A stretch of DNA of 64,000 nt from Streptomyces paludis (lineage in GTDB: Bacteria; Actinomycetota; Actinomycetes; Streptomycetales; Streptomycetaceae): the NCBI RefSeq assembly GCF_003344965.1, contig NZ_CP031194.1, positions 7,750,001-7,814,000 on the forward strand, in the 5' to 3' direction. Shown here in pieces: positions 36,516 to 64,000 of this stretch (positions are counted from its first letter, which is position 1; each line of letters opens with the position of its first letter). Made by a program: the position numbers and the translations under genes. Under the pieces are notes generated by a model that was not told where the DNA came from, did no database searches, and was given only the letters and a program-made list of their open reading frames with translations.

Positions 36516-39500
36516 ATGGATCGTGCGATGGACAATGAGCAGCGTCTCCGGGACTACCTGAAGCGCGCGACTCTCGACCTTCGGCGCTCCCGGCAGAAAG
36601 TGCAGGAACTGGAGGACGCGGCGACAGAGCCCATCGCCATCGTGGGCATGGGCTGCCGCTATCCCGGCGACGTGCGCGGCCCGGAAGACCTCTGGGCGAT
36701 GCTGGAGAGTGGCGGCCACGGTGTCACCGGCTTCCCGGCGGACCGCGGCTGGGACCCGGAGGCGCTGGGCACGTCCTCGACGCTGTCCGGCGGTTTCCTG
36801 CACGACGCCACCACGTTCGACGCCGACTTCTTCGGGATCTCACCGCGTGAGGCGCTGTCCATGGACCCGCAGCAGCGGGTACTGCTGGAGACGGCCTGGG
36901 ACGCGCTGGAGCGCGCGGGGATCGACCCGCTCGGCCTGAAGGGCAGCCAGACCGGTGTTTTCGTCGGCGCCATTCCGCAGGAGTACCGGGTCGGGCCGGC
37001 CGACAACATCGACGGCTTCCGGCTCACCGGCAACACGTCCAGCGTGATGTCGGGCCGACTGTCGTACAGCTTCGGCCTGGTGGGCCCCGCCGTCACCGTT
37101 GACACCGCCTGTTCCTCCTCATTGGTGGCACTGCACCTGGCGTGCCAGGCACTCAGGGCGGGGGAGTGCGACCTCGCTCTGACCGGTGGCGTCACCGTCA
37201 TGTCAAGCCCGCTCACCTTTGTCGAGTTTTCCAAGCAGGGCGGTCTCGCCGCGGACGGGCACTGCCGCTCGTTCGCCGATTCGGCCTCCGGCACCGGCTG
37301 GGCCGAGGGCGCCGGCGTGCTTGTGCTGGAGAAGCTGTCCGACGCGCGGCGCAACGGACACACCGTCCTCGCGGTCGTGCGCGGCTCGGCCGTCAACCAG
37401 GACGGCGCGTCCAACGGCCTGACCGCTCCCAACGGGCCCTCGCAGGTGCGTGTCATCGAGCAGGCGCTGCTCAACGCGCGGCTCTCCGCCGATCAGGTCG
37501 ACGTCGTCGAGGCGCACGGCACCGGCACCACGCTCGGGGATCCGGTCGAGGCGGAGGCGCTGCTCGCCGCCTATGGTCGCAACCGGCCCGCGGACCGCCC
37601 GCTGCTGCTGGGCTCGGTGAAGTCCAACATCAGCCACACGCAGGCTGCCGCCGGCGTCGCCGGCATCATCAAGCTGGTACTGGCCATGCGGCACGAGGTG
37701 CTGCCGAAGACACTCCACGTGGACGTCCCGACATCACATGTGGACTGGTCCAGCGGGTCGCTGGCACTCGTGACCGAGAACACACCGTGGCGCGAGGAGG
37801 CGGACCGCCCGCGGCGCGCAGGGGTCTCCTCGTTCGGACTGAGCGGTACGAACGCTCACGCCATCATCGAGCAGGCGCCCGCCGATACGGACGAGCCGCC
37901 CATCGGCGACATCGCGGCCGGGGCGGTGCCGCTGCTGGTGTCCGCGCGGACCCATGAGGCCCTCGCACAGCAGGCCGCGCAGCTGCTGTCCACGGTGGAG
38001 TCCGGTAGGCCGGTCGACACCGCCTTTTCGCTCGCGACCACGCGAGCCGCGTTCGAGCACCGCGCCGCCGTTGTCGCGACCGATGCCGAGCAGGCCAGGG
38101 CCGCGCTGACGGCGCTGGCCGCCGGTGGGACGCCGGCCGGGCTGGTTTCGGGCGTCGCACGGGGCAGGCCCAAGCTGGCCGTGGTCTTCACGGGCCAGGG
38201 CGCGCAGCGCGCCGGCATGGGCCGCGAGCTGTACGACCGCTTCCCGGTGTTCGCGGCCGCGCTGGACGAGGTGTGCGCGGCGCTGGACGTCCACCTCGGC
38301 AGGCCGCTGCGCGAGGTCATGTGGGCCAGGACGGCACGTACTCTCAACCGCACCGAATACGCCCAGCCGGCACTGTTCGCCGTCGAGGTGGCGCTCTACC
38401 GGCTGGTGGAGTCGTGGGGTGTCAAGCCGGATTACCTCGCCGGCCACTCCATCGGCGAGCTGGCCGCCGCGCATGTCGCCGGTGTCCTTGATCTGACCGC
38501 GGCGGCGGCGCTCGTGACGGCGCGCGGACGCCTGATGCAGGCACTGCCCGCGGGCGGTGTGATGACGTCCGTGCGGGCGTCCGAGGCCGAGGTGGCACCC
38601 CTGCTCCTCGACCATGCCGGCACCGTGTCGATCGCGGCCGTGAACGGCGCGCGGTCGGTGGTGGTCGCGGGCGCCGTGGACGCGGTCGCGGGGATCGAGG
38701 CGGCACTGGCCGAGCGCGGACACAGAGCGAAGCGGCTGCGCGTGTCGCACGCGTTCCATTCGCCGCTGATGGATCCGATGCTGGACGACTTCCGCGCGGT
38801 AGCCGAGGACCTGACGTTCCGCGAGCCGCTGCTGCCGGTCGTGTCGACCCTGACCGGTGAGCAGGCGACGGTCGAGCAGCTGACCGGTGCGGACTACTGG
38901 ACCGACCATGTGCGCCGTCCCGTGCGGTTCCACGACACTGTCGGCTGGCTGCGCGAACACGGTGTCGGCGCGTTCCTGGAGCTGGGCCCGGACGGTGTGC
39001 TCACCGCGCTGGTGCGGGAGAGTTTCCCGGACGCCCACGCCGTCGCGACGCTGCGCGGGGCACAGCCCGAGGGCGCCGCGCTCGCGGCCGCGGCCGCGGG
39101 TCTGCACGTACGGGGCGTCCCGCTGCGTTGGGCCGATTACTTCGCGGGGACCGGAGCCCGCTCCGTCGACCTGCCGACGTACGCCTTCCAGCGCCGCCGC
39201 TACTGGCCGCGCGACGGCTACGCCTCCGTCGGAGACATGCGCGCCGCCGGCCTCGCCCCGGCCGACCACCCGCTCCTCGCCGTCGCCGCGTCCCTGGCGG
39301 ACTCGGACGGCGTGCTGCTCACCGGCCGGCTCTCGCTGGGGTCCCACGCATGGCTCGCCGACCACGCCGTTCGCGGCACGGCCGTCCTTCCCGCCACCGC
39401 GCTGCTCGAACTGGCGGTCCGCGCCGGCGACGAGGTCGGCTGCGGCCGGATAGAGGAGCTGACGCTCGCCGCACCGCTGGTGCTGCCCGGCGAGGGCGGC

Positions 39501-62700: not shown

Positions 62701-64000
62701 CTCTCGAACACCCCGACCGCTGGGGCGGTCTTGTGGACCTGCCGCCGCTTCTGGACGGGGCCACGGCGGCCCGACTGCCGGGAGCCCTGTGCGGCGAGGG
62801 CGGTGAGGATCAGGTCGCGGTGCGGCCGGGCGCGGTGTTCGGTCGGCGGCTCGTCGCGGCGCCGGCGTCCGGTCCGGACCGTCTGTGGTCGCCCGACGGC
62901 ACGGTCCTGGTGACCGGTGGCACCGGCGCTCTGGCCGCGCACGTCGCCAGGTCGCTCGCCGCGGAGGGCGTGCCCCACGTCCTGCTCGCCAGCCGTCGCG
63001 GCGAGGCCGCGCCCGGCGCCGCCGCACTGCGCGCGGAGCTGGAGGGCCTCGGGGCACGTGTCACCATCGCCGCGTGCGATGTGGCCGACCGGGCCGGCCT
63101 GACCGCGCTGCTGGACGGCATCCCGGCCGGGCATCCGCTGACCGCGGTCGTGCACACGGCGGGTGTACTCGACGACGGGGTGGTCGACGCGCTGACACCG
63201 GAACGCTTCCAGGACGTGTTCCGTGCCAAGGTGGCCTCGGCGCTGCTGCTCGACGAGCTGACACGCGGTCTCGGCCTGACCGCGTTCGTGCTGTTCTCGT
63301 CCGCGTCCGGCACGGTGGGAAACCCCGGCCAGGCCAACTACGCCGCCGCGAACGCGGTGCTCGACGCGCTGGCCGACCAGCGTCGTGCGAAGGGCCTGCC
63401 GGCCACATCGATCGCGTGGGGTGCCTGGGGCGGCGGTGGCATGGCCGCCGGCGCACACGCCGACGAGGGCGCGCGGCGCACCGGCGTCGGCGCGATGGAG
63501 CCCGCTCTCGCCGTGACGGCGCTGCGGCAGCTTGTCGCGGAGCCGGCCGCGACCGCGGTGGTGGCCCAGGTGACCGCCGCGGCGTTCCTCCGCGGCACCA
63601 CGGGCTCCCGGTTGCGGACGTTGCTTCAGGAACTGCCCGGAGGCGGGCATCCGAACGCCCCGGAGCAGCAGCGGGAGCAGGCGCCGCAACTGCTGACTCG
63701 GCTCGCGGGCCTGACTCCGGTGCGGCGCGGGGAGGAAGTGCTCCGGTTGGTTCAGGACAGTGCCGCCGCGGTGCTCGGCCACGCCGACGCCGAGCTGGTC
63801 GGAGCCGACAAGGTATTCCGGGACATGGGCTTCGACTCGCTGAGCGGCGTGGAGCTGCGCAACCGGCTCACCGCCGTGACCGGGCTGACACTGCCGTCCA
63901 CGCTGGTGTTCGACCAGCCCTCGCCCGCGGCGATGACCGCGTATCTGCTCGACGAGTTCCGGCTCGACGGGGAGAGCGGCGGGGGGCCGGCCGACGGGGA
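36516..64000 (+). CDS. Six-module type I polyketide synthase of the AmphI/NysI/PimS2 type (3' end beyond window)
   Basis: One frame stays open from 36516 to the window end, over 9,160 residues. AmphI/NysI-type proteins are about 9,500 residues, so little is missing. Starts at GTG 36501 (GAAGG nine bases upstream) and ATG 36528 are alternatives. The N-terminal segment [20 protein letters not shown] is a class 1 docking coiled coil, so the chain comes from another PKS protein. Modules in order: KS-AT-DH-KR-ACP, KS-AT-KR-ACP, KS-AT(methylmalonyl)-KR-ACP, KS-AT-KR-ACP, KS-AT-KR(degenerate)-ACP, KS-AT-KR-ACP. All six KS have the TACSSS active site. The order equals modules 9-14 of amphotericin/nystatin and 5-10 of pimaricin synthases, which cannot be told apart by this protein alone. 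No thioesterase is present in the window. Confidence 0.93.
41754..46160 (+). other. PKS module 2: KS-AT(malonyl)-KR-ACP
   Basis: KS Cys codon is 42264. AT Ser is 43578 (GHSVGE), with HAFH at 43869-43880, hence malonyl. There is no DH. KR at about 45,120-45,780 has TGGTGGLG and Ser/Tyr/Asn intact (Tyr codon 45555). It lacks both the LDD motif and the Trp eight residues before Tyr (Ile there), so stereotype is uncertain, perhaps A1. ACP Ser is 46047. In amphotericin-type enzymes this module makes the hydroxyl that later carries the sugar (C19). Confidence 0.86.
46221..50700 (+). other. PKS module 3: KS-AT(methylmalonyl)-KR(A2)-ACP
   Basis: KS Cys codon is 46731. AT Ser is 48048 in GHSQGE, with YASH at 48348-48359, the methylmalonyl signature, unlike every other AT here. 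KR at about 49,635-50,290 lacks LDD, has Trp eight and His three residues before Tyr (Tyr codon 50076), the A2 pattern. ACP Ser is 50583. It should add the methyl branch (C16 in amphotericin numbering) that is later oxidised to carboxyl. Confidence 0.88.
50757..55230 (+). other. PKS module 4: KS-AT(malonyl)-KR-ACP
   Basis: KS Cys codon is 51276. AT Ser is 52611 (GHSVGE), with HAFH at 52905-52916, hence malonyl. KR at about 54,180-54,850 has TGGTGGIA, a variant LAD for LDD, and FVLFSSTTG...QANYAAANA with Ser, Tyr and Asn intact, so it should be active and B-like. ACP Ser is 55110. It should give a hydroxyl group. Confidence 0.85.
55281..59450 (+). other. PKS module 5: KS-AT(malonyl)-KR(degenerate)-ACP
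   Basis: KS Cys codon is 55785. AT Ser is 57054 (GHSVGE), with HAFH at 57333-57344, hence malonyl. The KR at about 58,528-59,100 is shortened and broken. The NADPH motif reads TGADTPEG, and where active KRs have the Tyr...Asn pair this one has [14 protein letters not shown]. It should not reduce, leaving a ketone. ACP Ser is 59325 (GVDSL). The matching module of AmphI/NysI also leaves a ketone, which closes as the ring hemiketal. Confidence 0.88.
59502..63960 (+). other. PKS module 6: KS-AT(malonyl)-KR-ACP
   Basis: KS Cys codon is 60000. AT Ser is 61320 (GHSIGE), with HAFH at 61611-61622, hence malonyl. KR at about 62,898-63,560 has [11 protein letters not shown] (B-type) and FVLFSSASG...QANYAAANA, all catalytic residues intact. 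ACP Ser is 63837 (GFDSL), and the ACP is complete before the window ends. The last bases encode a Gly-rich linker, probably leading to a C-terminal docking segment. Confidence 0.87.

Follow-up and report, generated by a model that had tools for sequence, protein, structure and literature searches.

Which polyene would the large modular polyketide synthase (PKS) locus of the soil bacterium Streptomyces paludis assemble, and would its product carry an exocyclic carboxyl group? A sequence-only reading of the 64,000-nucleotide stretch analysed here (the window, C1:7750001-7814000 of an 8.45-Mb single-contig genome) had proposed a glycosylated polyene with both an exocyclic carboxyl and a hemiketal. 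The genome was read on both sides of the window, and features lying outside it are given in window numbering. We find that the locus is likely an otherwise nearly complete cluster for an antifungal polyene of the lucensomycin (lcm) type, from which the C-12 carboxylase P450 (lcm6) and its ferredoxin (lcm7) have been lost, with a product expected to be of the 12-decarboxy-12-methyl type.

Module order and family of the assembly line

A single forward-strand frame, 36501-64217, extends beyond the window end; a stop-free run of 27.7 kb with PKS domains is far beyond chance. According to Pfam, each of the six modules has KS, AT and ACP domains, and five have a complete KR; DH is confined to the first module, and the KR of the fifth is a remnant (56 bits, profile positions 108-178). 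Aligned motifs show HAFH (malonyl) in five AT domains and YASH (methylmalonyl) in the third, and the third KR carries a W and an H, which we take to be A2-type marks. Of the six KR domains, only the fifth is without an intact TGGxGxxG motif and a catalytic Tyr. The order read from the letters alone (DH-KR; KR; methylmalonyl with A2 KR; KR; dead KR; KR) is thus recovered by Pfam and aligned motifs, which also give the following modules:

36501..64000, frame ends 64217, + strand: LcmC/PimS2-type hexamodular PKS, 9238 amino acids (aa), six modules; 85% identity to the counterpart in genome G095 (see below)
36501..41723 (boundaries approximate), + strand: module 6, KS-AT(malonyl)-DH-KR-ACP, predicted source of the fourth double bond of a tetraene
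41721..46193, + strand: module 7, KS-AT(malonyl)-KR-ACP
46191..50783, + strand: module 8, KS-AT(methylmalonyl, YASH)-KR(A2-type)-ACP, predicted origin of the C-12 methyl branch
50781..55253, + strand: module 9, KS-AT(malonyl)-KR-ACP
55251..59483, + strand: module 10, KS-AT(malonyl)-dead KR remnant-ACP, predicted hemiketal keto group
59481..64000, ends ~64217, + strand: module 11, KS-AT(malonyl)-KR-ACP
64233-69602: module 12 PKS, DH-KR
69640-75612: module 13 PKS, DH-KR-TE
78743-87850: loading KS(Ser)-AT(YASH)-ACP fused to KS-AT-DH-ER-KR-ACP (module 1), one open reading frame (ORF), 3035 aa
87902-107218: modules 2-5 PKS, KR, DH-KR, DH-KR, DH-KR

Ring size and double-bond number had been assigned to genes outside the window, and there they can be read: loading, DH-rich and thioesterase modules are all present, and the modules point to a 26-membered tetraene. 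The full line runs from methylmalonyl loading with a fused fully reducing module through KR, three DH-KR modules (3-5, continued by the DH-KR module 6 that opens the hexamodular PKS), the rest of the hexamodular six, DH-KR and DH-KR-TE. The KS0 motif is VDTASSSS, YASH occurs in AT0 and AT8, and the DH motif HxxxGxxxxP is found in modules 1, 3-6, 12 and 13. The KS(Ser) loading module would start from propionyl, and full reduction by module 1 would leave a butyl tail at C-25, whose hydroxyl, set by module 2, would close the 26-membered lactone. Modules 3-6 would then lay down the tetraene, module 8 the C-12 methyl, module 10 the ketone that yields the hemiketal, and modules 12 and 13 the 4,5 and 2,3 double bonds. 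The hemiketal region proposed earlier is therefore upheld by the dead KR of module 10.

Rimocidin, tetramycin and pimaricin were dropped as products, since both the fusion of the loading module to a DH-ER-KR module and the number of extension modules, 13, agree with lcm, the exclusion assuming the rimocidin and tetramycin architectures to be as we take them. In Table 2 of PMC8781583, where luc and lcm are said to agree perfectly, the domain order of the lucensomycin line (luc rows whole, lcm rows to module 8) is that of the S. paludis line for the loading module and all 13 extension modules, except that no KR is listed in module 10, of which a dead remnant is kept in S. paludis. The PKS proteins measure 3035/6438/9238/1789/1990 aa, against printed lucensomycin sizes of 3035/6457/9249/1789/1995 aa (PMC8781583). 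The lcm clusters of S. cyanogenus S136 (lcm), S. achromogenes NBRC14001 (luc) and S. collinus Inha504 (LCM) likewise have a fused loading and first module and a methylmalonyl starter. Pimaricin (natamycin, PimS0-S4) shares the tetraene and a PimD-like P450 with this cluster, and lcmB-E are reported to be colinear with pimS1-S4, but pimaricin lacks the fused fully reducing module (PMC7875965); it has PimG and PimR (PMC4700089), with a ferredoxin beside PimG.

The resemblance extends to the accessory genes. Shared with lcm are the Lcm8/9 transporters, the Lcm10 P450, LcmRI/RII, the glycosyltransferase, a type II thioesterase, the GDP-mannose dehydratase and the cholesterol oxidase, whereas lcm6 (P450), lcm7 (ferredoxin) and lcmRIII are without an ortholog found here; the remaining lcm genes are catalogued in PMC7875965. 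The genes for the sugar, namely a GDP-aminosugar synthase (aminotransferase), the glycosyltransferase and the GDP-mannose dehydratase, are all present at the cluster. Three accessory genes lie next to the hexamodular PKS:

34595..36331, - strand: ABC transporter, Lcm8 type, 578 aa (Pfam; 83% to G095)
32715..34598, - strand: ABC transporter, Lcm9 type, 627 aa (Pfam; 81% to G095)
31543..32694, + strand: cytochrome P450 of the AmphL/PimD/NysL kind, Lcm10 ortholog, putative 4,5-epoxidase, 383 aa (best PDB matches AmphL, PimD and NysL)

The same cluster is carried by G095, a genome of the same genus and the one lcm-type relative obtained from three overlapping draws in the genus and its relatives (392, 296 and 391 genomes). 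Identities to G095 are 85% for the hexamodular PKS, 83-84% for S3/S4, 82% for the fused loading PKS, 81-83% for the transporters, 80% for the Lcm10-type P450, 87% for the cholesterol oxidase, 78% for the glycosyltransferase, 75% for the aminotransferase and 67-69% for two regulators. The G095 contig stops inside the four-module PKS, for which no true counterpart was scored; this is probably also why the thioesterase and GDP-mannose dehydratase have no G095 match. The cholesterol oxidase (112733-114376) lies at the cluster end opposite to its position in G095, adjoining the GDP-mannose dehydratase. A protein search with residues 1-1700 of the hexamodular PKS (515 candidates scored, 120 best listed) returned matches of 48-63% identity and, among the matches listed, no protein longer than 7999 aa and no full-length hexamodular relative or ortholog.

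The missing carboxylase P450 and ferredoxin

In S. paludis only 394 bp separate the last PKS gene from the aminotransferase, and lcm6, of the PimG/AmphN kind that we take to be CYP105H, is absent from this gap together with lcm7. In the lcm tables, the PimG-like P450 and the ferredoxin are located precisely there (PMC7875965, PMC10987574). The three nearest relatives, G095, S. mutabilis (L008) and Actinokineospora spheciospongiae (L007), also hold both genes in the gap. When aligned to G095 and S. mutabilis, the 394-bp sequence matches from the PKS (S4) end through the terminator hairpin and again from 12 bases before the aminotransferase stop; in the middle, about 258 bp of unrelated sequence replace the P450 and the ferredoxin. 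Within this stretch lies a hairpin whose two 32-base arms pair perfectly (genomic 7825789-7825861), a 24-base piece of which was found, in a whole-genome search allowing up to 3 mismatches, in its own two arms only. In a glycosyltransferase tree of 69 rows, the S. paludis protein falls into one 100/100 group with those of S. mutabilis, A. spheciospongiae and G095. Since these nearest relatives all have the P450, gene loss is the simplest reading.

No ortholog of lcm6 or lcm7 was found elsewhere in the genome. With the S. mutabilis carboxylase as query, 25 P450s matched, the best (C1:8159374) at 47% identity over nearly its full length; an lcm7-type query reached 46% at best. Four ferredoxins of 38-46% identity each adjoin a P450 of 39-42% (at 382 kb, 3.72, 7.10 and 7.91 Mb). 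The P450 inside the window (31543-32694) was considered as the carboxylase and rejected, since it matches AmphL, PimD and NysL best in the PDB and shares about 29-33% with the carboxylase-type P450s of the aminotransferase loci compared. It is 80% identical to Lcm10 of S. cyanogenus (UniRef name) and 83% to an S. mutabilis protein.

These matches raise the question of whether another P450 and ferredoxin act in trans, in which case ordinary lucensomycin would still be made. The 47% P450 and the four P450/ferredoxin pairs could in principle act on C-12, and they count against a carboxyl-free product. However, the 47% P450 is adjoined by none of the four ferredoxin matches. Moreover, among the best 80 of 130 aminotransferase loci (S. 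mutabilis itself counted), 63 carry a P450 that shares 64-100% identity with the S. mutabilis carboxylase, the next best in any locus being 38%; all carboxylase-type P450s at these loci thus share at least 64% with the query. The flanking P450 is wanting at the other 17 loci, and whole genomes were searched for 10 of these: 9 keep a copy of 66-69% elsewhere, where S. paludis has none. We therefore hold carboxylation in trans to be very improbable.

The exocyclic carboxyl proposed by the sequence-only reading is not supported, as the AmphN/PimG-type P450 and its ferredoxin are lacking at the locus and no orthologs of them were found in the genome. The want of AmphN-type genes, which that reading had named as refuting a polyene cluster, in our judgement bears on the carboxyl instead: the glycosylated polyene macrolide PKS stands because the lucensomycin cluster is matched in the order of its modules and in its glycosyltransferase, transporters, LuxR-type regulators and cholesterol oxidase.

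The tenth searched genome, S. cacaoi NBRC 12748 (L075), has no P450 match at E 1e-100. At its locus (10001-11912) the thioesterase directly follows the aminotransferase without a P450 or ferredoxin between them. In L041, which the glycosyltransferase tree places as its sister (98/89), both genes lie between aminotransferase and thioesterase; the pairing of L075 with L041 is weaker in the aminotransferase tree (93/68), where the L075 branch is long. S. cacaoi thus seems to have undergone a second, independent loss of the P450 and ferredoxin genes.

Predicted product and sugar

Because lcm6 is absent, the C-12 methyl should stay. An aminosugar, mycosamine or perosamine, would be attached, and Lcm10 would epoxidise C4-C5 fully or partly. 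The predicted product is 12-decarboxy-12-methyl-lucensomycin (C36H55NO11, calculated [M+H]+ 678.385) and/or its 4,5-de-epoxy form (662.390). Lucensomycin itself we take to be C36H53NO13. The m/z of 708.359 printed for it in PMC10987574 agrees with calculation from this formula. In pimaricin, knock-outs of the counterpart scnG are reported to yield 12-decarboxy-12-methyl pimaricins that still bear the sugar (PMC4700089). One study obtained 4,5-deepoxy-12-decarboxy-12-methyl pimaricin, and another the epoxide too; there, sugar addition proceeds without the carboxyl and epoxidation is impaired.

The origin of the aminotransferase bears on the sugar. The S. paludis enzyme shares 83-84% identity with its counterparts in A. 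spheciospongiae and S. mutabilis, with which it forms a 100/100 group in a tree of 82 rows, and 75% with that of G095, which lies elsewhere (intervening forks 99/89; exact place weak, 81/16). The G095 enzyme is 74% identical to a protein of locus L044, and published Lcm5 and candicidin FscMII share 74.43% (PMC7875965); if L044 is a candicidin-type cluster, the G095 enzyme would be lcm5-like. The S. paludis aminotransferase thus appears to be of another lineage than the one we take to be lcm5-like. The kineosporicin/actinospene cluster of A. spheciospongiae matches at the aminotransferase (83%) and glycosyltransferase (79%), with the same order of both and of the flanking PKS genes; unlike the present cluster it keeps an AmphN-type P450, and three further P450s and a diepoxide methyltetraene product are reported for it (PMC8944477).

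The A. spheciospongiae enzyme is described as a verified GDP-perosamine synthase in section 12 of PMC8944477, and perosamine is a possible sugar here as well. A carboxyl-free tetraene bearing perosamine instead of mycosamine, parallel to perimycin, would be compatible with the loss of lcm6. In its favour, the aminotransferase groups with the A. spheciospongiae and S. mutabilis enzymes, away from G095, though PKS and glycosyltransferase are of one family. Yet the same section states that perosamine and mycosamine synthases are not separable by sequence and have no diagnostic residues, and 83% identity is no proof of function; we rate perosamine at somewhat under an even chance. The two sugars are isomers. 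For lucensomycin itself, nuclear magnetic resonance (NMR) was hindered by low yield in the S. achromogenes study, the S. collinus work describes the use of mass spectrometry (PMC10987574), and the word NMR is absent from the main text on S. cyanogenus lcm (PMC7875965).

Natural glycosylated polyenes without an exocyclic carboxyl, to which the predicted product may be likened, are already known: perimycin, an aromatic heptaene with perosamine, and selvamicin, a rhamnosylated pentaene in which the methyl-bearing carbon is hydroxylated (PMC8944477). Otherwise, carboxyl-free versions have come mostly from engineering aimed at lower toxicity, as for amphotericin, nystatin, rimocidin, CE-108, candicidin, tetramycin and pimaricin (PMC9854516). 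According to this source, amphotericin B, nystatin, pimaricin, tetramycin B and candicidin become less haemolytic once the carboxyl is removed; activity against fungi is often retained, though it is 5-10 times lower for candicidin, and amphN and nysN knock-outs initially failed. No lucensomycin-type cluster without lcm6, nor a naturally carboxyl-free member, was found in the open-access literature searched, and such a variant appears to be new. A strain naturally without the pair could supply a carboxyl-free compound and an epoxidase perhaps adapted to this substrate, and it would allow a test of whether carboxyl loss is accompanied by a sugar change. Clusters of this kind could be overlooked by genome mining with AmphN as marker.

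A natural tetraene on the lucensomycin scaffold, with a C-12 methyl for the carboxyl and perosamine for mycosamine, is a more tentative proposal that we would not yet favour. If true, the carboxylate-ammonium pair would be altered at both poles together, as in perimycin. Lcm10 would have to take a substrate without the carboxyl, although ScnD, the pimaricin epoxidase, works poorly on such compounds, and the loss in S. cacaoi would point to repeated natural turns to carboxyl-free polyenes.

Regulators, mobile elements and neighbouring genes

The regulatory and mobile features of the locus are as follows:

28905..29600, - strand: LuxR-type regulator, LcmRII position, start uncertain (GerE domain, no PAS match in Pfam; 67% to G095)
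28112..28720, + strand: PAS-LuxR regulator, LcmRI position, start uncertain, ORF from 27893 (PAS and GerE domains; 69% to G095)
31471..31486, + strand: PimM-operator-like box (core CTAGGGAATT) upstream of the P450 (consensus/core search with random control)
36406..36421, - strand: PimM-operator-like box in the interval from ABC transporter to PKS (differs from the 16-base consensus at 2 positions)
78556: PimM-like core box between glycosyltransferase and loading PKS (core search)
17640-18740, 19267-20481 and 25956-27077: two IS110 transposases and a DDE_3/winged-helix IS630-like transposase (Pfam)
108054-109839: Mutator-type (IS256) and IS4/5-type transposase pieces (Pfam)

Several of these features weigh against a functional cluster with the predicted product. 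Insertion-sequence genes or remnants (the IS110 pair, IS630, IS256/IS5-type) flank both sides of the cluster, the cholesterol oxidase has been relocated to the other cluster end, and no ortholog of the PimR-type lcmRIII was found in the genome. The query for the latter was a 1192-aa G095 protein with BTAD, AAA and regulatory domains that adjoins the cholesterol oxidase, taken as lcmRIII from domains, size and place; the best match was 38% over about 260 N-terminal residues. Since the PimR-type regulator is missing, the cluster may be silent, and it could be decaying. To these points are added the sugar, which may be mycosamine or perosamine, and the side chain: that of lcm is given as n-propyl, with a C5 starter unit, in PMC7875965, against the butyl counted here from modules.

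Rearrangement might accordingly have removed lcm6, lcm7 and lcmRIII from a cluster whose remainder is decaying and which yields no product; PimR knock-outs indeed make no pimaricin (PMC4700089). Against this, the five PKS frames (~22,500 aa) are open with KS, AT, DH and KR motifs, the accessory genes likewise read as open frames and show their Pfam domains, and both LuxR-type regulators are kept. Moreover, the 10-base PimM core occurs at three promoter sites (chance mean 0.47; none of 60 random sequences reach three), as it does at two sites in G095 (chance mean 0.1; 1 of 60 random sequences reaches two). A crippled cluster thus seems unlikely, and we retain the lucensomycin-type cluster without its C-12 carboxylase as the better explanation. 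The full 16-base PimM consensus is poorly matched: two sites with at most 2 mismatches occur here, one inside a PKS gene (chance 0.6), and none on either strand in G095. A search of 6-7 kb here and in G095 for paired direct PimR heptamers spaced by 4 bases gave no hit in either and is therefore uninformative.

Two further systems lie in the surroundings. An eCIS-like contractile injection system set occupies 1719-13530 of the window and continues leftward to C1:7735477, with tail sheath, tube (gp19), AAA ATPase, eCIS_core protein, baseplate V and J proteins and DUF6519. Another large array of PKS modules, in which 20 KS matches were counted, is located at C1:8241711-8372150.

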